A stretch of 64,000 nucleotides of DNA from an uncultured Pseudomonadales bacterium. Its GTDB lineage: Bacteria; Pseudomonadota; Gammaproteobacteria; Pseudomonadales; Azotimanducaceae. The translations under genes were made by a program, and so were the position numbers. Positions 27,297-45,899 of this stretch are shown here, piece after piece (position 1 is the first letter of the stretch; every line of letters starts with the position of its first letter). The stretch lies in the NCBI GenBank assembly GCA_938036875.1, contig CALHVX010000044.1, positions 1 through 64,000 on the forward strand. Reading direction: 5' to 3'. The notes beneath the pieces were generated by a model. The model was not told where the DNA came from, did no database searches, and saw only the letters and a program-made list of their open reading frames with translations.

Positions 27297-28970
27297 ATGC
27301 CACTACTGCAAGCGGATCAACCGCCACCACCAGCCTATTACGCCAACAACGTGCGCCAAGTTCTGGCGCAGGTGGCTAGCCTGTACGGCGATATTGTGCC
27401 TCGTCCGGTTGCCGTGTTTCTAGCGCAACATGCCAGCTTGGGTGAACCAGCCCAGCGCCTCTATGCGCGTTTGATCATGCGTAAAGGGCCGGTCTTTCGA
27501 CTCAGCAAGTTGAGCTACGCAGAGGTGGATAACCTTGAGCTTGCCGTAGCGGAACTGGTTGCCGCGCAATTGTTGGAACGCAACAGCCACTGTCCGGCGG
27601 ATGCGTTGCTGGGTCTAGCCAATTATGCCGATCTAAAACATTGGTTTCCGCAGGTGCGCCTAGCGCGTCAAACCCCTCGTGCGCAATGGATATCCCACTT
27701 GCTAAGCACGCACAGCGACCGCCAGATAACCCAGCAACTGGGCTGCCACATGCAATGGGTTCGGTTGTGTCAGCAATCCCAGCTGCAAGTGGCCTTGTTG
27801 CTGTACTTCGGCAACCAGCATCAAGACTTGAGTAGCTTCATCACCCAAGACCTTGGCTTGTTTGAGTATGAACAGTACCCGCTAGGCATAGCTCAGCGCC
27901 AACTTCGTACCGCTGCAGACCTGCTGTCGCAACTGCGGATTCGCCGCTTGGCAGATTTAGCCCATCGTCTAGATGAGTATCAAGAAGCAACGAACCAGGG
28001 CGCTGCACTGGCTGAACACTTGGCGGAACAATTAGCGCCCAACCCGGAGCGGCGTCAAGACCAGCGCCTTAGAGACAAGGCGCTAAATCGAATAGGCGGG
28101 TGGCTGGAACGCCAGCGTGCATTGCCTCAAGCATTGCTGGTGTATCAACATTCCCAAGCACATCCCGCTCGGGAGCGCGGTGTGCGCTTGCTGTGCAAGC
28201 TAGGGGATCTAGGCCAAGCGCAGCAGCTGTTGCAACAGATACAAGCGGCACCTACGACAGCGGCAGAAACAACTTTCGGTGAAACCTTCCAGCTACCTAA
28301 GCCTGGCAGTGGTGGCCAAGGTCGCTGCAAAGCGCAACGCGCAATCCATGTGAGTACCGAAGTGTCGCTGCAACAGGTTGATATGGTGGCAACGCCCAAC
28401 ATCGAAGCCCAAGCCTTGGCCAGCCTAACCGCTAGTGGCGGTTGCGGCTGGCATGTAGAAAATGCATTGCCTAAAGGATTGGCCGGGCTGTGTTACTGGG
28501 CTACCGTCTTTGCTCCTCAGGCCGGGATGTTTCACCATCGCTTTCAAAGTGGTCCGTTAGATTTGTATTGGGACGACTTCGCCAGTTCCCGTGCGGCTAT
28601 GTTGGACGCTCAAGATGCGCAACTTGTCTCATCCCAAGCCATTGGGGCACAGCTACTGGCCACCCAGCAACACAAGCAGGGGCTGGTTAACGGGCTGGTG
28701 CATTGGGGGTTGTTCGATGACGTCTTTGTGCAGACTCTGCTGCGTTACATTCCCGCTCACGACCTGTGGCGTCTTGCGCAGTTTACCATTCGCAATCTGG
28801 CTGCTTATCGTGCGGGTTTTCCCGACCTTTTGGTGATTTACGGTCCAGGCAACTATGAGTTTGTCGAGATCAAAGGCCCTAACGATACCTTGCAAGCCTC
28901 ACAGCAAAGCTGGTTACGCCAACTCCAACGCTTAGATTTGCCAGTGCGTGTTCTTAAGTTTCGCGCTTAG
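27297..28970 (+). CDS. FAN1-like structure-specific nuclease (VRR-NUC domain)
   Basis: 557 residues. The C-terminal ~110 residues form a VRR-NUC/PD-(D/E)XK nuclease core: D510 in GFPDLL and E524-x-K526 in EFVEIKGPND, then QASQQSWL, the hallmark of FAN1. The N-terminal part holds the SAP/TPR-like helical regions of bacterial FAN1 (e.g. KGPVFRLSKLSY near residue 62). FAN1 cuts 5' flaps and helps unhook interstrand cross-links. ATG 27297. Followed 26 bp later by the DinG-like helicase, with which it likely forms one repair operon. Confidence 0.88.
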   Translation: MPLLQADQPPPPAYYANNVRQVLAQVASLYGDIVPRPVAVFLAQHASLGEPAQRLYARLIMRKGPVFRLSKLSYAEVDNLELAVAELVAAQLLERNSHCPADALLGLANYADLKHWFPQVRLARQTPRAQWISHLLSTHSDRQITQQLGCHMQWVRLCQQSQLQVALLLYFGNQHQDLSSFITQDLGLFEYEQYPLGIAQRQLRTAADLLSQLRIRRLADLAHRLDEYQEATNQGAALAEHLAEQLAPNPERRQDQRLRDKALNRIGGWLERQRALPQALLVYQHSQAHPARERGVRLLCKLGDLGQAQQLLQQIQAAPTTAAETTFGETFQLPKPGSGGQGRCKAQRAIHVSTEVSLQQVDMVATPNIEAQALASLTASGGCGWHVENALPKGLAGLCYWATVFAPQAGMFHHRFQSGPLDLYWDDFASSRAAMLDAQDAQLVSSQAIGAQLLATQQHKQGLVNGLVHWGLFDDVFVQTLLRYIPAHDLWRLAQFTIRNLAAYRAGFPDLLVIYGPGNYEFVEIKGPNDTLQASQQSWLRQLQRLDLPVRVLKFRA

Positions 28971-28996
28971 ATGTTGGCTTAGCCTCAACGCTGCTT

Positions 28997-31435
28997 ATGT
29001 CCAACCACGCCAACCCCATTAGTTTGTCCGCTGGGCAGATTGCTAAGTCGCATCGCTTAGGCGATTTATATCCGGGCTTAGAGGGCAACACTAAGCCAGA
29101 GGAGGGGATTGTTACCCAGCAAAAGCTGCAGCAAGCTAAGTTTGAGCCCTATCAATCTGAGGTGCCTGTTAGCGCCCTGGTGACTTACGCTGGTATCACC
29201 TTTGAGGTTCAAGGTCGCATTGATGGCTTAGAAGTGAGCGGTTCAGATGACGCAACCGCCAGCGTGTTAGTAGAAGAGTACAAAACGACCAGGGCGGACC
29301 CGGTTGCCGCTCATGCACATCTAAACAGCGAGCACTGGGCTCAGGCGCGTGTTTATGCTGCCTTGCTAGCTATCGCTGCACCCGCGCGAAAGAGCTATCG
29401 TCTACGCTTGCTGTACTGCAACCCAGACTCGTTAGCGGTGTGGACAGTGGAAGAAACGCCTAGTCGCACCGAGTTGCTCGCTTGGTTCGATGGGGCCATT
29501 GCAAAGCAGGGGCAAAAGGTTCTGGCCAAGCGTCAGTACGATGCTAAGCGTAACCATTGGTTGGCAACTCGTTCTTTCCCATACCCCAGCTATCGACCAC
29601 ACCAACGGGCACTGGCGGCCTGCGTTTATCAAAGCATTCGCGATGCCCAACCTTTGTTGCTCGAGGCGCCAACGGGTAGTGGCAAAAGTCTTGGTGTGCT
29701 GTATCCGGCCCTAAAAGCGCTGACTACGGGTGTTGTTGAGCGCTATTTGTTTTTAACAGCGCGAACAACCGGTGCCTTGGCCGCAGCCAACGCCTTGCAG
29801 CTGTTAGAACCTCCGCCAGACAAATTGCGTTGGGTGCACTTGAGGGCAAAGCAAGCCGTGTGCCCGGTCCCCGGTATGCCTTGCCATGCTGAGCAGTGCG
29901 ATTACGCCAAAGGATATTTTGATCGAATTGAAGGTGCGGTTGCGGATCTGGTGACGCGCGGTGGTATGTCGGTTGAGGTGGTTGCGGAGGTAGCCGAGGT
30001 ACATAAAGTTTGTCCGTTTGAATTGTCTCTAGATGCTGCGCTAGAAGCCGATGTGGTCATTGCGGACTACAACTATGTGTTTGACCCGGTTGCACGTTTG
30101 CTTCGCTTTGCAGGCGGGCAAGACCTGGGTTTGCTTATCGATGAAGCGCATCAACTGTTTCCCCGGAGTTGCGATGCACTTTCGAGCGCAGTGCCAAGAA
30201 CTTTGGTAGCCGCTGCAAAGGCTGAGGGGTTTCGCTCGGAGCTCACCAAGCGCATCAACGGAATTGCGCGCGCGCTAACCAAAGCGGCGAAGCAAACACT
30301 TAGCTCAGGCAGCGATTCGACAAACTCGGGTTTCGTTGATCCCGAGCAGTTAATCGAGTTTCCGAAAACGCTGGAGCGTGCGTTACAGCGTTTTGTGGAT
30401 GAGCTAGCGAAAATCGATGGCGACTTGGCGGCTGCACCGCAAACCCGTGAGCTACTCTTTCTTGCTTTACGTTGGTTGAAGCTTGCAGGGGAGTTTGATG
30501 AAGAACGCTATCGAGCGGTTGCGTTTCATGGCCAACCCGGCACCAATAGTGCACCTAGTACCAGCGGCGGCCACGCCCTGGTGCCAACTCGCAGCGGGTC
30601 CAAGGCGGAGCTGGCGGTCGGTTTTGTCTGTTTAGACGCATCCAAACACATTGCGCAAACCTTAGGTCGCTTTTCTGCCGACATACGTTTTTCGGGCACC
30701 TTGTCACCGCTGGAGATGCATTCAACCCTCCACGGCCGACCTGACACTCGTCTGGAACGGGCGGGTTCGCCTTTTGCTTCGGAGCAGTTGGGCTGCTACA
30801 TCGTGCCGGATGTCCCAACCTACTTTCGACAGCGGCAACAATCGTTACCGCAATTGGCCGAGCTAGTGCACCAAATTGCCACTGCTCACCAGGGGCGCTA
30901 TTTGGTGGCGCTACCGTCCTTTGCTTATCTACGGGCGCTGGAAGAGGCGTTGCTGGATCTGGCTCTTCAGGCAGAGCATGGCCCCATTATCTGCCAGCAC
31001 AGTGGGATGGATGCGCAGGCCCAAGCTAACTTTCTTGACGCTTTCAGCGCTGCCCAGCAAGCCATTGGGTTAGTGGTGTTGGGCGGTTTGTTTGCTGAGT
31101 CCGTGGATTTTGCAGACACCAAGATTAGCGGCGTCATCTGCGTTGGGGTTGGCATCGCGCCACCCAGCTTGCGCCAGCAGCAAGCACGACAGCATTTTGA
31201 TGGCCTGGGTTTAGCGGGTGAGCAGGTGGCCGCCACCCAACCAGCCATGGTGAAGATTGTGCAGATGGCCGGCCGACTGTTGCGCAGCCCCAAAGACTCT
31301 GGGGTGCTCTGCCTGGTGGATGATCGCTACCTCAAGTCGGAATACGGCCAGTATTTTCCGCAGCTTTGGCAGCCTCAGCGGGTTCGGGCAAACGAGATGC
31401 CCTCAGTACTGGCAGAATTTTGGGCTGCAGACTAA
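28997..31435 (+). CDS. DinG/XPD-like helicase with N-terminal PD-(D/E)XK domain
   Basis: 812 residues. Residues ~45-145 look like a Cas4/PD-(D/E)XK nuclease (D76 in RIDG, E94 and K96 in EEYKT). Then come the superfamily 2 helicase motifs: Walker A APTGSGKS (224-231), DEAH (382-385) and the C-terminal motif VI QMAGRLLRS (~752-760). Four cysteines suitable for the XPD-type 4Fe-4S cluster lie between them: C289, C296, C301, C339. A 5'-3' helicase that opens branched or damaged DNA for the adjoining nuclease is likely. 26 bp after FAN1, 33 bp before pyk. Confidence 0.85.
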   Translation: MSNHANPISLSAGQIAKSHRLGDLYPGLEGNTKPEEGIVTQQKLQQAKFEPYQSEVPVSALVTYAGITFEVQGRIDGLEVSGSDDATASVLVEEYKTTRADPVAAHAHLNSEHWAQARVYAALLAIAAPARKSYRLRLLYCNPDSLAVWTVEETPSRTELLAWFDGAIAKQGQKVLAKRQYDAKRNHWLATRSFPYPSYRPHQRALAACVYQSIRDAQPLLLEAPTGSGKSLGVLYPALKALTTGVVERYLFLTARTTGALAAANALQLLEPPPDKLRWVHLRAKQAVCPVPGMPCHAEQCDYAKGYFDRIEGAVADLVTRGGMSVEVVAEVAEVHKVCPFELSLDAALEADVVIADYNYVFDPVARLLRFAGGQDLGLLIDEAHQLFPRSCDALSSAVPRTLVAAAKAEGFRSELTKRINGIARALTKAAKQTLSSGSDSTNSGFVDPEQLIEFPKTLERALQRFVDELAKIDGDLAAAPQTRELLFLALRWLKLAGEFDEERYRAVAFHGQPGTNSAPSTSGGHALVPTRSGSKAELAVGFVCLDASKHIAQTLGRFSADIRFSGTLSPLEMHSTLHGRPDTRLERAGSPFASEQLGCYIVPDVPTYFRQRQQSLPQLAELVHQIATAHQGRYLVALPSFAYLRALEEALLDLALQAEHGPIICQHSGMDAQAQANFLDAFSAAQQAIGLVVLGGLFAESVDFADTKISGVICVGVGIAPPSLRQQQARQHFDGLGLAGEQVAATQPAMVKIVQMAGRLLRSPKDSGVLCLVDDRYLKSEYGQYFPQLWQPQRVRANEMPSVLAEFWAAD

Positions 31436-33724: not shown

Positions 33725-34861
33725 ATGCGTCCATTTGCGCCTCAATCTCGGAGTCTACTGAAGTTGCACCATCGGCACCAACACAGCACTACAAGAGCCC
33801 CTGTTTTCGGGCGTATATCAGCTTCCGGGTTGGCGTGGAGCTTGTGCCTAGGGCTATTCATCAGCGTGGCCTTTAACACCGATGCAAATGCCGATGCAGA
33901 ACGCATCAAGCTACCCAACGGCGACTTATACGAAGGGGAGGTTGTTGATGGGGTTCGCACAGGCCAAGGGGTGTACACCTGGAGTGATGGGTATCGCTAC
34001 GAAGGCCAGTTTGCCAACAATCGGCTCCAAGGTGAGGGCACCTATTATTGGCCTGATGGGCGCAAATATGTAGGTGAGTTCAGCGCCGACAAGCGCCAAG
34101 GCGAAGGTCGGCTAGAGTGGCCAAACGGTGACATCTACATAGGCGACTTTTTCCAAGATCAAATGCACGGCCAGGGTACCTTTGAGTGGGAAAATGGGGA
34201 TCGGTACACGGGCACCTTCAGTGACGGCAAGCGCAGCGGTCGCGGCAGCTTTGTTTGGGAATCCGGCGAGCGCTACGACGGAGACTTTGTGGGCGGTATC
34301 CTAGTGGGTAAAGGACAGTTTAAGTGGCCGGATGGTCGAGAGTTTGCCGGGCAATTTAAAGACGGACGTAAGCAAGGGGCTGGGGTCTTCCGTTGGCCTA
34401 ACGGCAATCGCTACGTTGGCGAGTTCAGTGACGATGTACGTGATGGCTTGGGGGTTTTCTATTGGCGCGATGGCACCATTTATCGGGGTCAGTTTGCCGA
34501 AAACCGAATGCATGGTTATGGCGTGAAACAACAGCCGGAAGGCTCGATGGAAGTACAGCTTTGGAATCGTGGTCAATTGCAACTGAATCGCAGCTTAAGC
34601 GCGGTACCCCACTGCCAGCTATCGCTAGATGGGCGGCCTTGGATGTTTCAACATGAGCGTTGCACCAACGGCTTAGCCCACGGTCGCGGGTTGGCCGCTA
34701 GCCTAGATGGCAGCGAAGTCATTGCAGACGCCCACTTTGTCTTGGGGCACCTAGTCTCAGGCAATCGTCAACCACTGGTGGCCCCTGCGGATCCTATTGA
34801 AGCCTCTGCTGATGCCGACCAAACGTCCAATTCCGTTTCTAACGATGGTGGTGCACGTTGA
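33725..34861 (+). CDS. Exported MORN-repeat protein
   Basis: 378 residues from ATG 33725. A signal-peptide-like helix (residues ~35-52, AWSLCLGLFISVAF) with likely cleavage near NADA is followed by nine MORN repeats of 23 residues ([YF]xG[EDQ]F...GxGxxxWxxG, residues ~58-262) and a non-repeat tail. MORN arrays form elongated scaffolds, often binding lipid or protein. Start chosen because the earlier ATG 33527 would run antisense through the TauE gene. It overlaps the kinase gene that follows (TTGA). Confidence 0.85.
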   Translation: MRPFAPQSRSLLKLHHRHQHSTTRAPVFGRISASGLAWSLCLGLFISVAFNTDANADAERIKLPNGDLYEGEVVDGVRTGQGVYTWSDGYRYEGQFANNRLQGEGTYYWPDGRKYVGEFSADKRQGEGRLEWPNGDIYIGDFFQDQMHGQGTFEWENGDRYTGTFSDGKRSGRGSFVWESGERYDGDFVGGILVGKGQFKWPDGREFAGQFKDGRKQGAGVFRWPNGNRYVGEFSDDVRDGLGVFYWRDGTIYRGQFAENRMHGYGVKQQPEGSMEVQLWNRGQLQLNRSLSAVPHCQLSLDGRPWMFQHERCTNGLAHGRGLAASLDGSEVIADAHFVLGHLVSGNRQPLVAPADPIEASADADQTSNSVSNDGGAR

Positions 34862-37146
34862 TTGAACTGCCCGGGTATGAAGTTGAGCGTGAGATTGGAC
34901 GCGGCGGTATGGCTCGCGTCTATCTGGCGGTGCAAACAAAATTTGGTCGCTGGGTTGCGCTAAAGGTTGTTAGCCCAGACTACGCTAAAGATAAATCTTT
35001 TCGTAAACGCTTTTTGCAAGAATCTCGCATCAATGCGCAGCTTACCCATCCCAACATTGTTCAGGTCCATGACGTGGGTGCGCACGACGACCTGCTGTAC
35101 TTGGTGATGGAGTATTTGCGCGGTGGCGATCTGCACGCGCGATTGGCTCAAGGCATGCACATTACAGATCTTGTCCAGGTTGCCAAAGACATCGGTCGAG
35201 CTTTGGACCATGCCCATAGCAAAGGGGTTGTGCACCGCGACGTTAAACCAGAAAACATATTGTTCCGCGAAGATGGTAGCGCGGTTATTACCGACTTTGG
35301 TATCGCTCGGCTTGGTAGTCCAGAGGTGACCTTAACCCGTGCCGGCACTGTAGTTGGCACACCGCAATACATGTCGCCGGAACAAGCGTCCGGCAAAGCG
35401 CTGGATGGACGTTCAGACTTATACAGCCTTGGTGTGGTTTTCTTTCGCATGCTAACGGGGGACGTACCCTACAAGGCCGAGTCAGCCGTAGCGGTAGGGG
35501 TAAAACACGTACAAGAACCCATACCCAAATTGCCCAATTACCTAGCTCCGTTTCAACCGGTGATCGACAAGTGCTTGGCAAAGGATCCAAACAATCGAAT
35601 CCAGAGCGGGTCCGAGCTTGCCGCTGCACTAGATGCCATTGAAAGCGATGCCTTGTTACCCAACGCCACCATTCGCACCCAAGCGGTGACAACCCAAGAG
35701 ATCCGGGCGGTTGGTAGCAGCATGATCACACCAGTACGAGAGGGTGGACGTGGGGTCAAGCCGCGGCAATCTTCGGAACGTGGTGTGTTTCGTCAGTGGG
35801 CACCGTCTGCACTGCTGGCCTTGTTGGTCCTGGGTGCCACTTGGGTACTGACGCAAGAGCCCCAATTTGTCTCTCGCGTCTTAAGCCAGATGAACTTAAG
35901 CAGCGATGAGACCATCGACAACGCTTGGAATGCTGCACAGTCCCTGCATCAAGACCCGAACCAATCGTTGGCTTCCATCGTGGCTGGCTATCAACGCGTG
36001 CTCAATCAAGACTCGCTGCATTCAGGTGCGCTAGAGGCCGTTGATGGGCTGGCGGCGCAATGGAAAGACAGCGTTCGGCAAGCGTTGACCCAGTCAAATT
36101 TTGCACTAGCCGATACCAAGCTAAAAGAAGCGATCACAGCTTTTCCTCAAGACAGTGAGTTTGTTGAGCTACAAGAGCGCTACGACAACCTTGAGCAAGC
36201 CGCAAAACTGCTGCGTAGTACCAAAGAGATGTTGGCTAATACCGGGCTTGGCGATACCGATGCTGCGTCTGCGGCAATTCAAACTTACACCGAAGCCAAG
36301 CGTCTGGCACCTGAGCTGGAAGGTCTACAACAAGAGCTGGATACCTTAGCCGTGCACTTCTCTAAGTTGGCCAGCAGCGCAGCGGTGAGCGGCGATCTCG
36401 AAAAGGCGATTGCATTGCTTGACCGTGCAGCAACAGCCAACCCTGATATTGCCGACCTTGAGGTCGCTAGAGAACGGATCCAGCAAGCGACAACGCTGCA
36501 AGGTGCAATCACGGACCTGTTATCTGAGGCAAACCGCTATCGCCTTGCAGGTGCGCTGCTGACCCCGGCAGGTAAAAACGCAGCAGAGTTGTACAACCGA
36601 GTTCTGGCGGCCGATCCAAGCAACGTCACAGCGGCTCAAGGGCTGGCGGAAGTGACCGGTCAACTTGCCGCTCAAACAGATGGTATGTTTGCCGCAGGTA
36701 ATCTTTCTGCAGTGCAAGCCTTGCTCAATCGCGCGGACAAGGTGGGGTTGTCGGGTGATTCCATCAGCCAAATACGCGAGCGTTTAAATCAAGAATCGCG
36801 TCGAGTATCCCAGGTGGAAAAATTACTCGAACAAGCGGCCGAGCACATGCGTCTAGGCTACCTTACCGAGCCCACGGACAGCAGTGCTGTGCAAGCCCTG
36901 CGAGAAGTGCAACGACGCGACCCCGGCAATACCATTGCCAGCGAAATGCTATCCCAAGTAGCCCAACGCTTGGCGCAAACCGCACAAGAAGCCCAAGCAG
37001 TTGGCTTGGTGGATGATGCACTCACCTACATAGAGCTTGCATTAAGCGTTACCCCGGGGGTGGTGCAGTGGCGTGAAATGCGTGACCTTTGGCGCCAAGG
37101 GTCTAGCCAAGCGCCACTACCAACGTCACTAGGGGATAATTCGTGA
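34858..37146 (+). CDS. Transmembrane Ser/Thr protein kinase (PknB-type)
   Basis: 762 residues. An N-terminal Hanks-type kinase (residues ~7-270): glycine loop IGRGGMARV, K36, HRDVKPEN (D128), DFG (D146), GTPQYMSPEQ. A membrane helix lies at ~310-330, then a ~430-residue extracytoplasmic region of TPR-like helical repeats. All catalytic residues are present, so it should be active. TTG start overlapping the MORN gene stop (TTGA); its stop overlaps the FHA gene start (GTGA). Repeat region may sense envelope ligands or the MORN protein. Confidence 0.9.
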   Translation: MIELPGYEVEREIGRGGMARVYLAVQTKFGRWVALKVVSPDYAKDKSFRKRFLQESRINAQLTHPNIVQVHDVGAHDDLLYLVMEYLRGGDLHARLAQGMHITDLVQVAKDIGRALDHAHSKGVVHRDVKPENILFREDGSAVITDFGIARLGSPEVTLTRAGTVVGTPQYMSPEQASGKALDGRSDLYSLGVVFFRMLTGDVPYKAESAVAVGVKHVQEPIPKLPNYLAPFQPVIDKCLAKDPNNRIQSGSELAAALDAIESDALLPNATIRTQAVTTQEIRAVGSSMITPVREGGRGVKPRQSSERGVFRQWAPSALLALLVLGATWVLTQEPQFVSRVLSQMNLSSDETIDNAWNAAQSLHQDPNQSLASIVAGYQRVLNQDSLHSGALEAVDGLAAQWKDSVRQALTQSNFALADTKLKEAITAFPQDSEFVELQERYDNLEQAAKLLRSTKEMLANTGLGDTDAASAAIQTYTEAKRLAPELEGLQQELDTLAVHFSKLASSAAVSGDLEKAIALLDRAATANPDIADLEVARERIQQATTLQGAITDLLSEANRYRLAGALLTPAGKNAAELYNRVLAADPSNVTAAQGLAEVTGQLAAQTDGMFAAGNLSAVQALLNRADKVGLSGDSISQIRERLNQESRRVSQVEKLLEQAAEHMRLGYLTEPTDSSAVQALREVQRRDPGNTIASEMLSQVAQRLAQTAQEAQAVGLVDDALTYIELALSVTPGVVQWREMRDLWRQGSSQAPLPTSLGDNS

Positions 37147-38249
37147 TCACCATTTTTGTTGTATGCGATGGCGAAGACTATGAGCTAGTGGATAATCTGA
37201 CGATAGGGCGCCACCTTGACAACGATCTAGTGGTCGCAGGCGAGGACATATTGGACTACCACGCTCGCATTGAGCGAGTGGACCGAGGGGTTAAGGTGCA
37301 TCCGTTGTTAGATGCGACCGTCAGTCTAGGGCAGCAAGACTTTAGCACCCCGGTAAATTTGTGCCCAATGGACAGTTTGTCATTGGGCCAAGCACGCTTG
37401 AGCATTCGAGTCGAAGATGAGTCGACCATCAGCACGGCAAGTTGGTCCTTACGACATGTGGATGGCAGCATCACGCCAATTACCTCAAGTTTAACCCTGG
37501 GTCGTGCAGAAGATGCAGACTTAACGCTAGATGACGATCATATCTCGCGCTATCACTCTAAGCTGACGGTTCTATCCGGTGCTTGGCTGCAGGATTTACG
37601 TTCCGCCAATGGTACCTTTGTTAATGGCGAACGGGTTGTCGGCGGTGTTCGGCTGTTTCATGGTGACCTGCTTGGCATTGATACGCATCGCTTTCAAGTG
37701 TGTTGTGACAGCGAAGAGTTGACGCCAATCAAGCCCTTTGATCCCTTGCCGCCAAAAGCGATGTCAAGCGTGACGCAAAGCCAAAAGATTGCAGAGCCGG
37801 ATATCACCGAGTTTGGTGTGGTAGCACCCGAACCGCCCCCCAGCGCCGAAACCCGACATCAAGAGCTGGTTGGGGCACACTTGCTTGGTGCTAGTGAACC
37901 CATTGAAGGGCGAATTTTCGCCTTGCCGATGGGTACAACCACTGTCGGTAGAGACCCCACCTCTAACATTGTGATAGAAGATGCATCGGTGTCAGCACAG
38001 CATGCTCAGCTTGTGCTGCGGGCGGAAGGTTTAACCATAACCAGCCTTATCGCCACCAACGGGACCCAGGTTAACGGTAAACCGGTGACCACGGTAACGC
38101 TAGAGCCCTCAGACCGCATTACTCTGGGCCGTGTACACCTAATCTACCAACATCAAGCCCAGGGCTCTTGGCTGAGCAGAGCGCCTTGGTCATGGCTTGT
38201 GCTTGGAGCCTCAGTGGTCATCGCTGGTGTTCTCACCTGGGTGTGGTAA
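37143..38249 (+). CDS. Triple-FHA-domain protein with C-terminal membrane anchor
   Basis: 368 residues. FHA 2 (~residues 105-190: LTLGRAEDADLTLDDDHISRYHSKL...SANGTFVNG) and FHA 3 (~255-340: TTVGRDPTSN...SVSAQHAQL...ATNGTQVNG) have the conserved GR, S/H and NGT elements. FHA 1 (~1-90, LTIGRHLDND) is degenerate. FHA modules bind phosphothreonine, so this is the probable reader or substrate of the kinase upstream. A single membrane helix (~347-367) closes the protein (tail anchor). GTG start, coupled to the kinase gene. Confidence 0.9.
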   Translation: MITIFVVCDGEDYELVDNLTIGRHLDNDLVVAGEDILDYHARIERVDRGVKVHPLLDATVSLGQQDFSTPVNLCPMDSLSLGQARLSIRVEDESTISTASWSLRHVDGSITPITSSLTLGRAEDADLTLDDDHISRYHSKLTVLSGAWLQDLRSANGTFVNGERVVGGVRLFHGDLLGIDTHRFQVCCDSEELTPIKPFDPLPPKAMSSVTQSQKIAEPDITEFGVVAPEPPPSAETRHQELVGAHLLGASEPIEGRIFALPMGTTTVGRDPTSNIVIEDASVSAQHAQLVLRAEGLTITSLIATNGTQVNGKPVTTVTLEPSDRITLGRVHLIYQHQAQGSWLSRAPWSWLVLGASVVIAGVLTWVW

Positions 38250-38312: not shown

Positions 38313-39215
38313 ATGGCAGTCGAGATTCCCTACCGGCGTGAAATGCAGTTTGACTATGGCACCGTTGCCAACGTCGGCCCAGGCATCCGCCGAGTTATTG
38401 CCAACAATCCAAGCCCATTCACGCTCTATGGCACCGGCACCTACATTTTAGGATCCGGTGAAGTCGCTGTGGTGGATCCGGGCCCAGCCGATCCGGAACA
38501 CATCAAGGCTATCCTTGCCGCCACCGCGGGTGAGACCATCAGCCATGTCTTGGTGACCCATACCCACATGGATCATTCCCCGGGGTGCAAGCTGCTCGCG
38601 CAACACACCAAGGCCCCTACCTATGCTTATGGGCCACACGGAGCTGGCAAGGCTGAGGAAGGGGTCCAGGTTGAAGAGGGCGGTGATATGGAGTTCTCGC
38701 CGGATCACGAGGTTCGTCACGGCGATATCATTACCGGTGGTGATTGGTCGGTTGAGTGCGTGTATACCCCCGGACACACCTCCAACCACATGTGTTTTGC
38801 GTTACGTGAAGCCAAAGCCCTGTTTACTGGTGACCATGTGATGGGCTGGTCGACCAGCGTTATCTCGCCACCGGATGGCGACATGTCGGCCTACATGGCG
38901 AGCCTTGATTTGCTGTTAGATCGTGATGATGCGTTGTACTGGCCTACTCACGGCCCCGCGATCTTAGAACCTAAGAAACACGTTCAAGCGTTTATTGCGC
39001 ATCGTCGTGAGCGTGAGCAACAAATTCTTGCGGCTATCCGCGGTGGCGTACACAGCATTACCGATATGGTGCCCGACATGTACAAAGGTACTCCGGAGTT
39101 TTTGTACCCGGCAGCCGCTCGTAGTGTTTTTGCGGCAGTACAAGGTTTGATCGATCAAGGGACACTGAAGTGCGAGGGTACGCCCAAGCTTGAGAGCGAG
39201 TTTCACCTAGCCTAA
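38313..39215 (+). CDS. MBL-fold metallo-hydrolase (LACTB2-like)
   Basis: 300 residues. Zinc ligands HTHMDHS (~residues 79-85), HTSNH and GDHVMGW, then a C-terminal winged-helix-like region (YPAAARSVFAAVQGLIDQGTLKC), characteristic of LACTB2-type enzymes. These are RNA endonucleases in animals; bacterial members are commonly uncharacterised or act as thioesterase/glyoxalase-like hydrolases. RBS AGGAGG ahead of ATG 38313. Single-gene unit converging on the sensor kinase. Confidence 0.85.
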   Translation: MAVEIPYRREMQFDYGTVANVGPGIRRVIANNPSPFTLYGTGTYILGSGEVAVVDPGPADPEHIKAILAATAGETISHVLVTHTHMDHSPGCKLLAQHTKAPTYAYGPHGAGKAEEGVQVEEGGDMEFSPDHEVRHGDIITGGDWSVECVYTPGHTSNHMCFALREAKALFTGDHVMGWSTSVISPPDGDMSAYMASLDLLLDRDDALYWPTHGPAILEPKKHVQAFIAHRREREQQILAAIRGGVHSITDMVPDMYKGTPEFLYPAAARSVFAAVQGLIDQGTLKCEGTPKLESEFHLA

Positions 39216-39224
39216 GGGAACAGG

Positions 39225-41447
39225 CTAGCCTCGCTGCGCCCGTATCTCTGGCTCGGTTGAATCGTTGCTTTGGCGGTTAGATCGGCTGCTCGACTCAACA
39301 CGCGCCAACGGCAGTTGCACCATAATGGCGACCCCAGAGCCATCCGTGAGGTTCATGGCCCGAACAAAACCGCCGTGATACTCAGCGATGATGCGAACCA
39401 CATAGAGCCCGAGGCCAAAGTGCAGTCGATTCTGCGGGCCTCGATGGCTAACCATAGAATCAAACAATGAATCTTCCGCTTTCTTAGGTAGCACCGGACC
39501 GCGATTGGCCACGGTAATCTGCAGGTAATCTCGATAAGTATCCAGTTGCACTTTAATGGGGCTGTTGGTTCGATGAAAGTCGATGGCGTTGTCGACAATC
39601 TTATCTAGCAATTGCTCGATACGAAAATCCGAAACGTTAGCGTGGACTGGGTATGAGGTTCCGCGATAGACAAATTCAGCGCTGCTGTGGCTGATACTGC
39701 AGTTGGCCACGTAGCTTTTGAGCAAGAGTTGAATGTCGATGATTTCGCGTTCTTCCGCTTGCAGCGATTCTTCCAGGTTTGCGGCATCGGCTAAGTTTTG
39801 TACGATTGAGCCAATTCGATTCACGCCGCGCTTTGCACTCGCCAAGTATTTGCTGGACTGCACGTCTGGATTTTCTTCCGCTAAGTTATCTAGCGATGTA
39901 CTAAGGGTGTTCAACGGGTTGTTGATCTCATGGCGCAAGGTGCGCGGCATGTTTTCCAGAAAATTGTTGTGCTGATGCAGCTTTGACAGCATGTTCGAGA
40001 CGCTGCGCGCAAGCTCACCAATCTCATCACCCGCGCTCATCTCACGGGTAAGCTCGCTGCGACGTAGGCGCCCATAGTCATCAATGGCTGCACTGGCTTC
40101 ACGACGTAGCTTACGTATCCGCCAAGCGAGCCGACCGGCAAACGCAAGAAGGGCAATAAACACCGCAAACAAACTGAAGACGGACAGCAGAATCACCTGT
40201 TCTAAGGTGGCCCGCTGAAAGGACAAGATCTCGTTGATGTTTTGCTCAACCACCACGGTGCCAATGATTTCATCGTTTTCGGTCACAATGGGGTGGGCGG
40301 CAACAATAAGCTCTTGCTCATCCGCCAAGCGGCGTTGCAAGGTCATCGGGTTGCCTGCTAAGGATTGCTCAATGGCCGTGCTAGCTAGCCGCTGTGAGTC
40401 TGCGGGAGTCAACAGGGGCTGGTCGTACTGGGTGCCAGTAGTAACGTAGTGCAAAAAAGGTCGAGCTCGAGCAAATAGATCGGTGATCCAGCTGTACCAA
40501 TGTGTTTCAGCTTCGGATGGCGTGCCCGATTGGTTTGCCCCGGTTTCTGCACGAACGCGTTGCTGAGCATCGATAACCAAAATGCGTGCGCCGGAATAAC
40601 CCAGGCCGCGAATAATATTCAACACCTCAGGCGAGCGCAGCACCACCAGATTGAAACTCTCTTTACCCGCGGTGGGTAGGGTTTGCGTGATTTGCACTTG
40701 CTCACGAGAGATGGGGTCATCCACATCGACGTAAGTTAAACCAAAGAACCGTCTTGAGCCGACCATGGATAGCGGCAAACGGAACTCGATGACCAGTCCT
40801 GTGTCCGTAGGGCGCATGTAACCCTGCACCCGGTTGTCTGGGATGCCGTTGGCAGCCCTTTGCCATTGCTGATCCATTGGGTAGGTGGTGGTTACGCCCG
40901 GCGCTGGCAGGGTCATGGTTAAGCGAGCGTCTTCACCATCAGCGCGGATAAAACTGATCCTTACGTGATCCGCTTGGTCCAGACGCAAGTAATCGGGGTC
41001 TCTAGGTACCAAGACGTTGTCGACCACGGTCATGTAAAGGTGGAGTTGGTTTGAGCGCTCACCGATCCACAGCTTGAAATCCGCATCTCTATTGCCAGAC
41101 TCGCTGCCAAACTGTCGAAACTTGGTTTGTAGGTCTGCACCCCAGTCTTCGTTGGAGCCGTCTAGGCGAATGGTGCTTTGCAACGGATGCGCGTACAAGG
41201 CCTCGTAATCTTGTGAGGACACAGGTAGATCGTTAAACAGATCATCCCGGCCGTTGAACAGGGTTGAGATGCCTTCTGCGGTTAGCAGCTGTGCATGAGA
41301 CTGACCACGAACCAGCAATCGCTCCATCTCTACGAGCTGTCGATAGGAAAAGTAGGGCACCACCAATAGCATCAGCCCAAGCAACATAATCTTGGTGCCG
41401 AGTCGAGGCCCTCGATGTGGGCTAGCTAAGCGTTGCAGTACTGCCAT
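39225..41447 (-). CDS. Sensor histidine kinase, PdsS-like (dedicated sortase system type)
   Basis: 740 residues. Membrane helices near residues 18-36 and ~405-430 enclose a large periplasmic domain with a carbohydrate-binding (CBM9-like) look (IRLDGSNEDWG...FKLWIGERSNQLHLYM). HAMP, then HisKA with H-box RTLRHEINNPLNT and an ATPase domain with N-box IVDNAIDF and a glycine box FGLGLYVV. The length and the paired regulator recall the marine proteobacterial sortase-system kinase PdsS; a close hit has not been checked. 6 bp after the response regulator gene on the same strand. Confidence 0.75.
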   Translation of the reverse strand: MAVLQRLASPHRGPRLGTKIMLLGLMLLVVPYFSYRQLVEMERLLVRGQSHAQLLTAEGISTLFNGRDDLFNDLPVSSQDYEALYAHPLQSTIRLDGSNEDWGADLQTKFRQFGSESGNRDADFKLWIGERSNQLHLYMTVVDNVLVPRDPDYLRLDQADHVRISFIRADGEDARLTMTLPAPGVTTTYPMDQQWQRAANGIPDNRVQGYMRPTDTGLVIEFRLPLSMVGSRRFFGLTYVDVDDPISREQVQITQTLPTAGKESFNLVVLRSPEVLNIIRGLGYSGARILVIDAQQRVRAETGANQSGTPSEAETHWYSWITDLFARARPFLHYVTTGTQYDQPLLTPADSQRLASTAIEQSLAGNPMTLQRRLADEQELIVAAHPIVTENDEIIGTVVVEQNINEILSFQRATLEQVILLSVFSLFAVFIALLAFAGRLAWRIRKLRREASAAIDDYGRLRRSELTREMSAGDEIGELARSVSNMLSKLHQHNNFLENMPRTLRHEINNPLNTLSTSLDNLAEENPDVQSSKYLASAKRGVNRIGSIVQNLADAANLEESLQAEEREIIDIQLLLKSYVANCSISHSSAEFVYRGTSYPVHANVSDFRIEQLLDKIVDNAIDFHRTNSPIKVQLDTYRDYLQITVANRGPVLPKKAEDSLFDSMVSHRGPQNRLHFGLGLYVVRIIAEYHGGFVRAMNLTDGSGVAIMVQLPLARVESSSRSNRQSNDSTEPEIRAQRG

Positions 41448-41453
41448 CTAAGG

Positions 41454-42152
41454 TTATTCCGACCAACGGTAACCAAAGCCGTATTCACTTTTAATACAGC
41501 CGAAATCTTTATCCACTTTTTCGAACTTCTTGCGGATGTTTCGCATGTGGGTATTGATCGTGTTGTTGGTCACCAACGATTGCATGGTGGCGTTCATTAA
41601 GGTTTCGTAACTCACCGCGTGCCCGGGCACTCGAACCAATTTTGCGAGCATACGAAACTCGGTGCCGGACAGGTCGATGCGATTGCCGCGCCATGATGTC
41701 AGCAAGGCATCTTGATCTAAGGTCAGCTCGCCTATCTTTTTGGCGGTAGGGCTGTCTTGTTCTGATTGCTCGCTGCGAGCTTCATGGATGCGTAGCAGCG
41801 ATGATATCCGCTCGGCTAGATAATCTAGGCTGATAGGCTTGGGGAGGTAGTCCCAAGCGCCAAGACGCAGACCGGATATTTTGTCGATCTCGTTGATGCG
41901 TTCCGTAAGAAATATGACGGGCAAAGAGGGGGCGCGGGTCAGCAAATCGCGACACAATTGAAAGCCGCCATCTACCTCCTCACCAAGGATAATGTCCAAG
42001 ATTGCTAAATCCGGGAGTCGGGTATCAAACCCGGACAGGGCTTCTTCGCGGCTCCCGTAGGCGTGCACCTCATAGCCTTTCTTGGTGATGGCGTCAGCAT
42101 AGTTAGCACGCTGATCGGGATCGTCTTCGACGATGGCAATACATTTAGCCAT
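41454..42152 (-). CDS. OmpR-type response regulator, PdsR-like
   Basis: 232 residues. Receiver (1-120) with acidic pocket EDDP, phospho-Asp in LAILDIILGEE (~D54) and conserved Lys in YLPKPIS, then an OmpR winged helix (~135-230: TEFRMLAKLVRVPGHAVSYETLM...NTHMRNIRKKF). Begins the two-gene operon with the kinase downstream. The unusual IILGEEVDGGFQLC stretch matches what I recall of PdsR. No sortase gene is within this window. Confidence 0.82.
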   Translation of the reverse strand: MAKCIAIVEDDPDQRANYADAITKKGYEVHAYGSREEALSGFDTRLPDLAILDIILGEEVDGGFQLCRDLLTRAPSLPVIFLTERINEIDKISGLRLGAWDYLPKPISLDYLAERISSLLRIHEARSEQSEQDSPTAKKIGELTLDQDALLTSWRGNRIDLSGTEFRMLAKLVRVPGHAVSYETLMNATMQSLVTNNTINTHMRNIRKKFEKVDKDFGCIKSEYGFGYRWSE

Positions 42153-42276: not shown

Positions 42277-42347
42277 TCTAGGCTTGGTAGTTGCCTAGGT
42301 ATGAATTAGGGTACCGCATCCGTTGCAGTAAGAGCCGTTGCCCGATC

Positions 42348-42932
42348 ATGACCGTAGAATTGCTGTACACCCTGTTCGAGTGGGTGGCACTGGTGGCGGG
42401 GGTGGCCTGCGTTTGGCTTCTGATCAAGCAGAACATTTGGACCTTCCCCATTGGATTGTTGTTTTCGGTGGTCACCTTGGCTGTGCTCATTGCGCAAAAG
42501 TTGTACGCCAACAGCATTGAAACCGCTTACTACTTGTTCATGAATGCCTATGGTTGGTGGTGGTGGACGCGTGGCCAGCAAGACACCGGAGCAGAGCTGC
42601 CAGTCACCCGAATGCCAGCGCCTTGGTGGTTCGGCTTAGTGGTGCTTGGCGCTTTGGTCACCTTAGCCTTAGGGCGCTTTTTAGACAGTTATACCGATGC
42701 CGACCTGGCCTACATCGATAGCGCCACAACAGCCGCTGCGTTTATCGCTATGTGGATGTCGGCGCGCAAATACTTGCAGAGCTGGGCGCTTTGGTTAGTT
42801 GTCGACATAGCCTACGTGGGTTTGTACCTCTACAAAGATCTACCCACCTATGCTGTGCTTTACATCCTCTACTTAGGGTTAGCCGTTGTGGGGTGGCGCG
42901 CGTGGCAACGCAACCTAAACACCGCAACCTAG
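42348..42932 (+). CDS. pnuC: Nicotinamide riboside transporter PnuC
   Basis: 194 residues, seven or so hydrophobic helices. Hallmark segments: NIWTFPIGLLF and YLFMNAYGWWWWTRG (aromatic substrate-binding WW), LWLVVDIAYVGLYLYKDL. Imports nicotinamide riboside, then phosphorylated by the kinase encoded next. ATG 42348 chosen over the upstream open frame because PnuC helix 1 starts right after it. Confidence 0.92.
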   Translation: MTVELLYTLFEWVALVAGVACVWLLIKQNIWTFPIGLLFSVVTLAVLIAQKLYANSIETAYYLFMNAYGWWWWTRGQQDTGAELPVTRMPAPWWFGLVVLGALVTLALGRFLDSYTDADLAYIDSATTAAAFIAMWMSARKYLQSWALWLVVDIAYVGLYLYKDLPTYAVLYILYLGLAVVGWRAWQRNLNTAT

Positions 42933-43498
42933 TCTGCATCACCGGGCCAGAGTCCAGTGGTAAAACGATCCTTGCTAATCAGCTTGGCGCGCATTTTGCG
43001 GCGCCCGTTGCGCCTGAGTTTTCGCGCGCATGGTTGCAGCGACGTGCCGGTCGATACAGTGCAAAAGACCTAGCGACTATTGCTGCGGGTCAACTAGCTA
43101 ACGAACACCAGGTCTGGGAGCAGCGGTGCGATGCCGAGATCGCTTTTGCGGATACGGATATTCAAGTCATTGAGGTTTGGTGGTGGGTTCGGTTTGCTAG
43201 CCCTGCATGGCAGCGGCGTTATGCGTTGCGGGCCCCAGCAAAACGTTTGTACCCAGCGTGGCTGCAATTTGCTCTAAAGCAGCGCAGTCCGCGCCGTTAT
43301 TTGCTGGCCGCACCGGATTTAGCTTGGGAGCCAGATCCGCTGCGTGAATCACCGGGCACCCGGATGTTGCTGTTTGATCATTACCGACGTGTGTTGCGCA
43401 GAGACAACCTGGACTTTGCACTGGTCCGTGGCCGCGGTGCCAAGCGATTGCAAGCCGCACTCGAGGGTTTGGAGCGATTGGGTTGGGTAAGCCAATAG
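42902..43498 (+). CDS. NadR-like ribosylnicotinamide kinase (AAA/P-loop)
   Basis: 198 residues. Walker A GPESSGKT at residues ~15-22, then PEFSRAWLQ, DTD (FADTDIQVIE) and the C-terminal YLLAAPDLAWEPDPLRESP. This is the layout of the NadR kinase domain, which phosphorylates nicotinamide riboside. The NMN adenylyltransferase domain of full NadR is absent. GTG 42902 overlaps pnuC by 31 bp; coupling with the transporter supports the assignment. The frame is open much further upstream but in antisense-like frame over pnuC. Confidence 0.82.
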   Translation: MATQPKHRNLVCITGPESSGKTILANQLGAHFAAPVAPEFSRAWLQRRAGRYSAKDLATIAAGQLANEHQVWEQRCDAEIAFADTDIQVIEVWWWVRFASPAWQRRYALRAPAKRLYPAWLQFALKQRSPRRYLLAAPDLAWEPDPLRESPGTRMLLFDHYRRVLRRDNLDFALVRGRGAKRLQAALEGLERLGWVSQ

Positions 43499-43515
43499 TG
43501 GTTAGGGCCTTCGCA

Positions 43516-44472
43516 TTATAGTTGGAGCTGGAGGTGGAGCTTCAGTTGGTGTTGCGCTAGACGTTCTTGGGCTGCAATTGCTGGGTTTTGACTGCCTTGC
43601 CGAAGTTGCGCAGCGGCCCAGGCATACTCGCGTAGCCAATAGCTTCGCAGTGCAGCCGTGATTTGCTCTGCACTCACTGGCACTGCCAGGGCAAGGTCGC
43701 AAAACTCGGCTAGGCTTGGCCATTGCGGCGTTGCATGGCTCAACGCAACACCATTGGCCACAACACGCGCTTGCGCACCAGCGCGCTCCGCCGCAACACC
43801 TTGGTGCAACGTCACTGCATCAAAAATCGGGTGCGCCGTGGCAGCCGTTTCCCAATCCAAAGTTGTCCAACCTTGCGGTTGCTCACAACTTCGAATGATG
43901 TTCCAAGGGTTCAGATCATTGTGGCAGCACTGTAACGGACCTTCGCTTAACCGCTGTTGGTCCGCGCCGTCTCGAAGGTAGGCATGCAACCAAGACGGTG
44001 GTTGCGGCAACCAGCGCTGAATCAAGCTCTGTAGGTTGTAGTGTGCTGGTGCAGAAATTGGTAGCAGCTGTTCATGCAAGTGGCGTAGGTATGCGGCGGC
44101 TTCGCGTGGCAAAGGTGGCTGCTTTGCTAGCAATGGGCCATCAACAAACCCAGTGATCATTTCACCAAGAGTGACATCAGCTGCGATTAGCGGTGCGATA
44201 CTAAGGTTAGCCTGCCCATTGAGCAGCGCACGAAGCTGAATTTCTGAGGCTAAACCATTGGTCGCCTCTAGCGGTTGATCGCTTGGTTGACTGCGCAGTA
44301 CAAAGCGCTCGTTCGCATAGCGAAACAAATAGTTAGCATTGGCATAGCCACCGTCCAAGTAATGGAAACCTTCTACCACCGCCCCCCAACCTGGCATAAG
44401 TCGCTGGACTGTTTCTTGCAGCCGCACTAAGGGGAGGGTAGCGGGAGCGGCGCTATCTGCGTTAGTTAACAT
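43516..44472 (-). CDS. APH/choline-kinase-family phosphotransferase
   Basis: 318 residues. Kinase-like fold of the aminoglycoside phosphotransferase family: catalytic loop CHNDLNPWNI and metal-binding LDWETA. Family members phosphorylate thiamine, choline, ethanolamine or antibiotics; which one is not clear. ATG 44472 chosen over TTG 44481. It overlaps the 3' end of the Sir2 gene by 11 bp, third gene of a minus-strand run (CPT-type kinase, Sir2, this). Confidence 0.8.
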   Translation of the reverse strand: MLTNADSAAPATLPLVRLQETVQRLMPGWGAVVEGFHYLDGGYANANYLFRYANERFVLRSQPSDQPLEATNGLASEIQLRALLNGQANLSIAPLIAADVTLGEMITGFVDGPLLAKQPPLPREAAAYLRHLHEQLLPISAPAHYNLQSLIQRWLPQPPSWLHAYLRDGADQQRLSEGPLQCCHNDLNPWNIIRSCEQPQGWTTLDWETAATAHPIFDAVTLHQGVAAERAGAQARVVANGVALSHATPQWPSLAEFCDLALAVPVSAEQITAALRSYWLREYAWAAAQLRQGSQNPAIAAQERLAQHQLKLHLQLQL

Positions 44473-45220
44473 CACCAACAAAGGCTAAGGTTGCGCCAAT
44501 CTCTCGATGTAACACTAAGTCGGCAATGTCATCTAGTGGCGTTGGCTCTCGGTTCACGATCACCAGCTTGGCACCCCGTTGCTTTGCGTACTCGGGAAAG
44601 CTAGCGGCTGGAAACACCGTCAGCGACGAACCGGCCACAATCATCAAATCACAGGCTTCTACCGCCGCTTGGGCTTGCGCCATTGGTTGTTCCGGCATCG
44701 CTTGGCCAAAGCTGATGGTGGCTGTTTTTATAATGCCCCCACAACGACTGCAGGGGGGCACTTGCCCTTGCGCAGAAAACTGCGCTTCTAAATCTGCAAG
44801 CTCGTAACGGGTATTGCATTCAAGGCAGGAGGCATAACAGGCATTGCCATGCAGCTCAATCACTTGGTCATCTGGTACCCCACCGGCTTGGTGCAAGTTA
44901 TCCACATTCTGAGTGATCACCACCAATCCTTGGCCGCTGCTCATCAAGTTCGCCACCGCTAGGTGGCCCTTGTTTGGCTGGGCTTCTTCAATCACAGGTT
45001 CGCCTTCAAAACGACGTCGCCAAGACTCGGTGCGAACCTGTGCACTAGCAACAAAGTCTTGAAATTGAATGGGCTTCATTTTAGTCCACAGGCCAGTGCC
45101 CGGACTGCGAAAATCCGGAATACCAGATTCTGTGCTGATTCCTGCACCGGTAAAGAACACGATCTTGTGGGCGGCGCTGACCAGCGCCATAAATTTCTCT
45201 AGCTCATCATCAGACTGCAT
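44462..45220 (-). CDS. cobB: Sir2-family NAD-dependent protein deacylase
   Basis: 252 residues. FTGAGIS at the NAD site, DFRSP, TQNVDNLHQ, catalytic His in ELHGN, four zinc cysteines (CLEC ... CSRC), and VAGSSL. Removes acyl groups from lysines using NAD, relevant next to the NAD-salvage genes. ATG 45220 is used; GTG 45229 is equally possible. Confidence 0.93.
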   Translation of the reverse strand: MQSDDELEKFMALVSAAHKIVFFTGAGISTESGIPDFRSPGTGLWTKMKPIQFQDFVASAQVRTESWRRRFEGEPVIEEAQPNKGHLAVANLMSSGQGLVVITQNVDNLHQAGGVPDDQVIELHGNACYASCLECNTRYELADLEAQFSAQGQVPPCSRCGGIIKTATISFGQAMPEQPMAQAQAAVEACDLMIVAGSSLTVFPAASFPEYAKQRGAKLVIVNREPTPLDDIADLVLHREIGATLAFVGDVN

Positions 45221-45899
45221 AGCGGTCACCGTGGTCAGCTAGCCATTGTTGTAAGCCGCGAGGTGGACGTTGCAGGCTAGCAATGATGCTTTGAGCACAG
45301 CTGTCGGCGTTTAAATCTGTGGTATCCACCTCGACATCGTAGGCTAGGTCATGCCCATGAACTTGATCAAAATGTGAGGTGGCGGTCCCGGGAAAGCGTC
45401 CTGGGCGTTGAGCTTCGCGTTGATTCACCCGCTCTAGCGAGCAGCGCACGCCAACACACCAAACCTCATGCTTCTGCAGGGCAAGCGCGTAGTCGTGGAG
45501 ATACTCAGGTTTGAACAGCAGATCATCAACAATGACGTTGTTGCCTTGGCTGGCAAAAGCCGCAACAGCACGGCGCATGCCTCGAAGCATTTGCTCGCCG
45601 TGTGACCCAAACTCTATGGCGGTCACCCGTTCACCCTTTAAATCTCTTGGCACCACATTTAGGCCTTGAGCGCCTGGCGTCTGTGCCGGAGAGTTCAACC
45701 CACGAAAGCGATCCGGCAGCCCATCGCGGAACTGGTCCAATGCCATATGTTGATAAGCCTCCGGTAACAGCTGTTGTAGCTTGATGGCAAGCGTGGTTTT
45801 GCCCGAACTGCTAGAGCCGTTAAGGAGAATGATTCGCCCTTTACCGCCGATGCGGGTATCAGAGTCTGGGGCTAACGGGGTTTCGGACAATTGTGACAC
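45210..45899 (-). CDS. CPT-type (chloramphenicol phosphotransferase-like) kinase
   Basis: 229 residues. Walker A LLNGSSSSGKTT (~residues 25-36), DQFRDGLP, DDLLF and a C-terminal lid (LERVNQREAQRPGRFPGTATSHFD). This is the CPT family; most members are uncharacterised and are unrelated to chloramphenicol in non-producers. GTG start 45899. Its stop overlaps the Sir2 start by ~11 bp. Confidence 0.82.
   Translation of the reverse strand: MSQLSETPLAPDSDTRIGGKGRIILLNGSSSSGKTTLAIKLQQLLPEAYQHMALDQFRDGLPDRFRGLNSPAQTPGAQGLNVVPRDLKGERVTAIEFGSHGEQMLRGMRRAVAAFASQGNNVIVDDLLFKPEYLHDYALALQKHEVWCVGVRCSLERVNQREAQRPGRFPGTATSHFDQVHGHDLAYDVEVDTTDLNADSCAQSIIASLQRPPRGLQQWLADHGDRYAV

Follow-up and report, generated by a model that had tools for sequence, protein, structure and literature searches.

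Genes and features at the locus

In this study, the window, i.e. the whole stretch of 64,000 nucleotides analysed (contig C44 of a 4.74-Mb genome in 190 contigs), was found to carry consecutive genes for a MORN protein, a membrane Ser/Thr kinase and a triple-FHA protein (Table 1). Pfam detected nine MORN repeats (E 3e-57), a Pkinase domain (E 2.5e-55) and three FHA stretches (E 8e-40). The kinase gene starts inside the end of the MORN gene and the FHA gene inside the end of the kinase gene, each pair sharing 4 bp, and the overlaps described in the initial annotation are borne out by the reading frames.

Table 1. Positions of the three genes, their features and the downstream neighbour in the window
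Feature	Position	Strand	Remarks
MORN protein, 378 aa	33725..34861	+	Putative export signal, nine repeats, C-terminal cap
MORN repeats (nine)	33929..34549	+	Pfam
Two invariant cap Cys	about 34613 and 34661	+	MORN alignment
Ser/Thr kinase gene, 762 aa	34858..37146	+	TTG start; 4-bp overlap with MORN gene
Kinase domain, aa 7-249	34876..35604	+	Has Lys, alphaC Glu, HRD, Asn, DFG, SPE
Juxtamembrane motif VTTQEIRAV, aa 277-285	35686..35712	+	Glu281 conserved with and without FHA
Single transmembrane helix, about aa 315-332	35800..35853	+	Sequence, by eye
Predicted extracytoplasmic TPR-like alpha-solenoid ectodomain, 429 aa	35857..37143	+	Profile, predicted structure
Triple-FHA protein, 368 aa	37143..38249	+	GTG start; 4-bp overlap with kinase gene
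FHA1 (approximate limits)	37188..37397	+	Degenerate: Arg kept, Ser replaced by Asp, no Asn
FHA2 (approximate limits)	37476..37697	+	Canonical phosphothreonine-binding residues R/S/H/NG
FHA3	37938..38129	+	Canonical R/S/H/NG
Putative C-terminal hydrophobic tail anchor	38178..38246	+	Sequence, by eye; hydrophobic tails in complete homologues
Metallo-beta-lactamase-fold hydrolase (MBL)	38313..39215	+	Conserved downstream neighbour, outside the module

The ATG at 33725 is favoured as the start of the MORN gene over an in-frame TTG at 33830, because the N-terminal SLLKL is also found in genera g12 and g15 (SLLNL in g11); this stretch (33725-33800), common to the MORN homologues of these genera, precedes the putative export signal. 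In 93 of 101 MORN rows, the window included, a hydrophobic stretch (mean Kyte-Doolittle >=1.6 over 10 residues) lies ahead of the first repeat to be detected, and the remaining eight were mostly rows whose first motif matched late, in agreement with the earlier description of this protein as an exported scaffold. The predicted structure (pLDDT 94; alignment of 73 of 91 rows) is an elongated rod of beta-hairpins that ends in a C-terminal cap, and the Foldseek matches in the PDB included MORN1, radial-spoke, junctophilin and MORN4 structures. Both the repeats, which score above the Pfam cut-off, and the fold identify a MORN repeat protein. While the fold is that of eukaryotic MORN1, junctophilin and MORN4, the protein differs from these in being bacterial and putatively exported, with an invariant Cys pair in the cap and a kinase as operon partner. 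Cys242 and Cys258 (mature-chain numbering) were invariant in the 73 aligned MORN rows (73 of 91 alignment rows used), and the pair would fit an extracytoplasmic disulfide. On contig C127 (L094:6934-8559), the same genome encodes another MORN protein, of 541 aa, which differs from this one.

The presence of a Pkinase domain together with the Lys, alphaC Glu, HRD, Asn and DFG residues identified the kinase as Hanks-type, and with every checked catalytic residue in place it appears intact in the window genome. It did not qualify as a PASTA kinase (Stk1/PknB): the NF033483 match reached 318 of the 450 bits required and ended at aa 286, and the ectodomain is TPR-like. Weak Pfam TPR matches were found in the C-terminal half, and an all-helical TPR-like solenoid is predicted for the ectodomain (AlphaFold pLDDT 93; alignment of 96 of 103 rows), consistent with the membrane kinase with helical ectodomain proposed before. 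TPR superhelices were among the top Foldseek matches in the PDB by E-value and probability, with TM-scores of <=0.2 in nearly every match listed, and for this reason only the fold class is claimed.

The phosphothreonine binding site of FHA domains consists of Arg, Ser and Asn. The reader residues are present in FHA2 and FHA3, and not in FHA1. Those of FHA2 were conserved in all rows with this domain aligned, and those of FHA3 wherever the domain was complete, except in G139, G172 and G101, where they were lost or broken and where all kinases are impaired; in G173, G017, G015 and G010, the FHA gene is cut off, broken or reduced to a remnant. The hydrophobic C-terminus of the window protein and of complete homologues points to a tail-anchored protein, as had been suggested. 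At two loci of genera g4 and g26 (L076:9325-10341, L078:7951-8802), the kinase and FHA genes are separated by an additional gene, whose product has an FHA domain and matches class III cyclases in part, and might provide a second output.

Upstream of the locus are genes for a FAN1/VRR-NUC protein, an XPD/DinG-type helicase and a pyruvate kinase, with a TauE-family gene on the opposite strand, and downstream are the MBL gene and a two-component pair on the opposite strand. Among the neighbours scanned (27297-47925) we found no secretion-system genes, as initially reported, and no adjacent PP2C gene; the genome holds five PP2C matches, none of them on the window contig. The FAN1-type VRR-NUC and XPD/DinG-type helicase genes (27297-31435) form a pair conserved upstream of pyruvate kinase in many relatives. 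The histidine kinase/response regulator pair (39225-42152), akin to a sortase-system pair, adjoins the MBL gene in many relatives and scored below both cut-offs for a dedicated sortase system (TIGR03785, 469.4 against 612.2 bits; TIGR03787, 251.1 against 335.7 bits). Genes for a PnuC-like transporter, a NadR-like AAA_28 protein, an APH-like kinase, a Sir2 deacylase and a CPT-like phosphotransferase (42291-45899) possibly form an NAD-related cluster.

Retention of the MORN protein and the kinase ectodomain

Profiles of the ectodomain and of the MORN cap matched 113 and 110 of the 206 family genomes, respectively, each in 21 of 37 genera. Both were found in 106 genomes, the ectodomain only in seven, MORN only in four and neither in 89. 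The four MORN-only genomes are 64-74% complete, and most of the seven ectodomain-only genomes are incomplete or have their match near a contig end, G107 having only a weak, partial match. With distances taken at the homologous start, the MORN and kinase genes lay <=30 nt apart in 88 of 99 measurable loci, the window included. MORN protein and kinase ectodomain are thus nearly inseparable in the family. Among 390 genomes from the order, a near-full-length ectodomain was found in 12, all of this family, and weaker matches of up to about 300 of 419 positions occurred in other families.

Loci with a readable ectodomain were tabulated as 107 rows, one per genome, leaving aside G102, G107, G114, G119, G157 and G220 (split, partial or weak); the 31 relatives' loci with records are from metagenome-assembled genomes. 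The 1030-aa frames of G205 and G206, which resembled MORN-kinase fusions, hold no MORN repeats and shadow a MORN gene in another frame, and both genomes have the MORN cap. A candidate second MORN/kinase/FHA neighbourhood in G001 (L090) turned out to encode a CHASE2 kinase with PP2C and FHA, an unrelated MORN/Cds6_C gene being separated from the kinase by about 2.4 kb and two other genes; similar layouts were found in G008 and G033.

It could be argued that these genes are found together merely through chromosomal synteny, with no functional link. The order helicase, pyruvate kinase, TauE, MORN, kinase, (FHA), MBL and histidine kinase recurs in many loci, and synteny explains part of the MORN-ectodomain co-retention. 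However, the MBL gene was found in 35 of 37 family genomes sampled, module present or not, and since it persists in family genera without the module, the neighbours do not need the module; upstream of MBL in 14 genomes without the ectodomain, no such kinase, FHA or MORN gene was found, some contigs ending there. MORN and ectodomain are moreover present or missing together, G034 included (see below), and FHA presence tracks the catalytic integrity of a different gene. On balance, synteny alone is a very unlikely explanation.

Association of the FHA protein with kinase integrity

The FHA protein was present at 30 of the 107 loci, absent from 76 and unclear at one; it occurred in all readable rows of 12 genera and in none of six, while two genera were mixed (g21, g33) and one unclear. 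For seven module-bearing genomes of a 58-genome sample that lack it at the locus (G006, G007, G012, G020, G031, G032 and G036), no match to it was found anywhere in the genome at E 1e-5. A strict catalytic set (Lys, alphaC Glu, HRD Arg and Asp, Asn, DFG) was complete in 18 of 29 readable rows with FHA, as against 3 of 75 without, and a lenient set, which dispenses with the HRD Arg and with the Phe and Gly of DFG, in 19 of 29 as against 11 of 75, with median kinase-profile scores of 484 and 140 bits. Judged by residues, the FHA-less kinases are probably for the most part pseudokinases. Across 26 loci with FHA, kinase and FHA scores fell together (Spearman 0.89; 0.82 with the ectodomain score removed), a correlation that excludes G017, G173 and G100 (cut or split) as well as G106, includes non-independent related rows and uses FHA and kinase profiles built from some of the tested rows. 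The kinase domain could not be read in G106 and G204. By hand, G017 was scored as FHA present (the rest lies on another contig, L219) and G015 as unclear (broken frame), and the kinase of G100 was read from a second contig (L222); the g8 rows G068, G069 and G071 had lost Lys and HRD Asp on re-reading and were counted as not intact.

Exceptions were also found. G006 and G207 hold all catalytic residues without FHA, and eight further FHA-less rows pass the lenient set only. Nine g21 rows with FHA lack the alphaC Glu, some carrying HGD or HCD, and eight of the nine retain the FHA2 and FHA3 residues. An intact kinase with an FHA remnant in G010 contrasts with a degenerate kinase and no FHA in its congener G118 (g11), which fits loss of the reader first and of the kinase second. 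In G004, intact and degenerate forms seem to coexist, an FHA-linked intact kinase being accompanied on another contig by a second MORN gene and a degenerate kinase cut by a contig end (L080, L092).

The raw counts overstate independence, because the rows without FHA cluster in a handful of genera (21 in g21, 17 in g8 and 13 in g37). On an unrooted ectodomain tree from a quick search, FHA presence changed at least six times and the strict kinase state eight times. An independent-pairs test on five supported pairs gave means of 3.3 in the expected direction, 0.1 opposite and 1.6 with no difference for the strict set (p 0.125-1), of 3.0, 0.1 and 1.8 for the lenient set, and of 4.1, 0.1 and 0.8 for the kinase score (p 0.06-0.63), all three non-significant with this number of pairs. 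A loss-only Markov model with a present/intact root state, run under three definitions of an intact kinase with and without L080, preferred dependence in all six fits (likelihood ratio 13.7-27.7, p 0.001 to 1e-6). In this model, kinases were lost about 8-53 times faster without FHA, while FHA loss was not consistently faster after kinase loss, which suggests, given the assumed root and tree, that the reader was lost first and the kinase second. On the other hand, the g21 rows with FHA and no alphaC Glu, and the intact FHA-less G006 and G207, stand against this order.

The initial annotation had taken the three genes for a self-contained envelope signalling module. Joint conservation holds for the MORN and kinase genes and only in part for the FHA gene, which most loci lack; the kinase is intact in the window, and by residues inactive in most FHA-less relatives. 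The initial interpretation is therefore only partly supported, and the locus is better read as a pair of coupled halves than as a fixed triplet. G034 mirrors the FHA-less loci and speaks for the same division: in the same neighbourhood (L093) it encodes a 414-aa kinase without ectodomain adjoining a two-FHA protein with a hydrophobic tail, with no MORN match at E 1e-10, no ectodomain match and a juxtamembrane motif unrecognisable by eye. By eye, the canonical residues are complete in its first FHA domain, and the Asn is missing from its second. Although a single genome, it is the best single argument for MORN and ectodomain outside, and kinase and FHA inside.

Constraint on the two halves and the juxtamembrane motif

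Pairwise dN/dS (NG86) was calculated for 34 hand-picked pairs, of which L210/L216 and L212/L209 were dropped as mis-cut, and L081/L157, L175/L181, L180/L190 and L196/L197 had saturated dS in kinase or ectodomain. In all three measurable intact pairs with FHA, the kinase domain (0.02-0.08) had lower values than the ectodomain (0.08-0.19). Among 23 usable FHA-less pairs, some of which share sequences, the kinase value was higher than that of the ectodomain in 19 and lower in four, with kinase-domain values of 0.08-0.48, and two g21 pairs with FHA and impaired kinases gave one result each way. As all measured values were below 1, the degenerate kinase domains look maintained rather than freely decaying.

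The motif V-[ST]-T-x-E-I-x-A-V sits between the kinase domain and the membrane. Its Glu was found in 17 of 17 ungapped intact rows with FHA, in 11 of 11 impaired rows with FHA and in 73 of 73 ungapped FHA-less rows, and its Thr (Thr279) in 17 of 17, 10 of 11 and 44 of 73, respectively. FHA docking by the Thr was rejected as the whole purpose of the motif, since the Glu beside it stays in all rows while the Thr varies, so some other role is also likely. That the motif is kept regardless of FHA suggests a link to the membrane or the ectodomain, and the Thr may be an additional FHA site.

An alternative is that the kinase serves chiefly to anchor an envelope scaffold of MORN and TPR parts, and that signalling through kinase and FHA was added in some lineages. 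The continued constraint on MORN and ectodomain in FHA-less pseudokinase lineages and the invariant juxtamembrane Glu in FHA-less rows agree with it, and solved MORN structures, judged by their titles, include peptide complexes (MORN4/Myo3a, junctophilin/CaV1.1). However, where FHA is present the intact kinase domain is more conserved than the ectodomain in every measurable pair, and intact forms with FHA span 14 of 21 genera on many branches (root not inferred), which suggests an ancestral signalling role. We regard a mainly structural anchor as rather unlikely.

Relation to T6SS regulators and other known systems

The window genome has a T6SS on contig C72, and thus the module might be a T6SS threonine-phosphorylation regulator encoded apart from the T6SS. 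Three loci outside the family have kinase domains 51-56% identical to that of the module, and two of them (L098 and L099, but not L097) encode kinase-FGE proteins with PP2C and FHA genes adjoining, an arrangement shared with T6SS pathways. However, the T6SS on C72 has its own kinase-FGE protein and PP2C, the module is not encoded with the T6SS cluster, and, among the 21 carriers of the module in the 58-genome sample, the VipB sheath gene was found in the window genome (on another contig) and in none of the other 20. This distribution led us to reject the T6SS of the window genome as a general client of the module, and a role as detached T6SS regulator appears highly improbable. Since two of the three similar outside kinases are of the kinase-FGE type, the catalytic domain may share descent with T6SS-type regulators, the module itself being a separate unit.

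The best reading of the module, by analogy, is a T6SS-independent counterpart of RtkS-PpkA-Fha. RtkS/PpkA/Fha and TagQRST/PpkA/Fha1 are outlined in the available text of PMC10482370 as the threonine-phosphorylation pathway of T6SS, and resemble the module in having a periplasmic partner, an inner-membrane Ser/Thr kinase and a cytoplasmic FHA target. In contrast to these systems, MORN would here take the place of TagR/RtkS, the ectodomain is TPR-like, the FHA protein has three domains and a putative membrane tail, and neither T6SS linkage nor a PP2C gene among the scanned neighbours was found. In Acidovorax citrulli, the available text of PMC12607579 describes TssW-PpkA-Fha, in which the outer-membrane T6SS component TssW interacts with the periplasmic domain of the kinase; a kinase upstream of Fha and an envelope partner are common to both, while here the partner would be a MORN protein with no T6SS link. 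Degenerate Hanks-type domains retained in bacteria are also known from pseudokinase families, and in MviN, FhaA is recruited through its FHA domain to a phosphorylated tail beside the pseudokinase domain (PMC12599244, as far as its available text goes). Those pseudokinases are treated there as families, whereas here intact and degenerate forms, with and without a reader, occupy one syntenic locus; the words MORN and TPR are absent from the available text of that review. Searches of open-licence PMC literature for MORN with FHA, kinase, periplasm, operon or bacteria found no such module among the matches listed (the best 12 of 131 in one of them), nor did those for bacterial pseudokinases with FHA and FHA kinases with TPR among theirs.

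A model for the module and its meaning

With moderate confidence we propose that the locus encodes a T6SS-independent transmembrane kinase-FHA unit, composed of a periplasmic MORN/TPR sensor half and a cytoplasmic kinase-FHA relay half. Comparison across genomes revealed MORN-ectodomain co-retention, an association of FHA with catalytic integrity, conserved FHA2 and FHA3 residues and purifying constraint on both halves, to which the model adds a putative signal, binding step and phosphorylation. In the outer half, the exported MORN rod would bind, within the periplasm, the TPR-like ectodomain of the kinase, setting or gating its state on an envelope cue. In the inner half, the engaged kinase would autophosphorylate and make phosphothreonines, which FHA2 and FHA3 of the tail-anchored protein would read at the membrane, recruiting clients; FHA1, by its residues, may be a non-phosphate docking domain.

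More tentatively, an active receptor kinase may have been converted repeatedly into a pseudokinase at this one locus, set off by loss of the FHA protein, while the obligate MORN/TPR half and the juxtamembrane motif persist. After FHA loss, selection for catalysis would relax and the kinase would become a still-constrained pseudokinase, the MORN/TPR half staying, in the order suggested by the Markov model; the degenerate forms might then pass an envelope signal through the same receptor without phosphorylation. This conversion is the most interesting and the least certain of our claims.

The locus offers a natural series at one syntenic place, from active kinase with reader, through active kinase with decaying reader and impaired kinase, to dead kinase, and the question of what bacterial pseudokinases do thereby becomes testable with matched pairs. 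In addition, an exported bacterial MORN protein gains a concrete candidate partner, the ectodomain of a receptor kinase.
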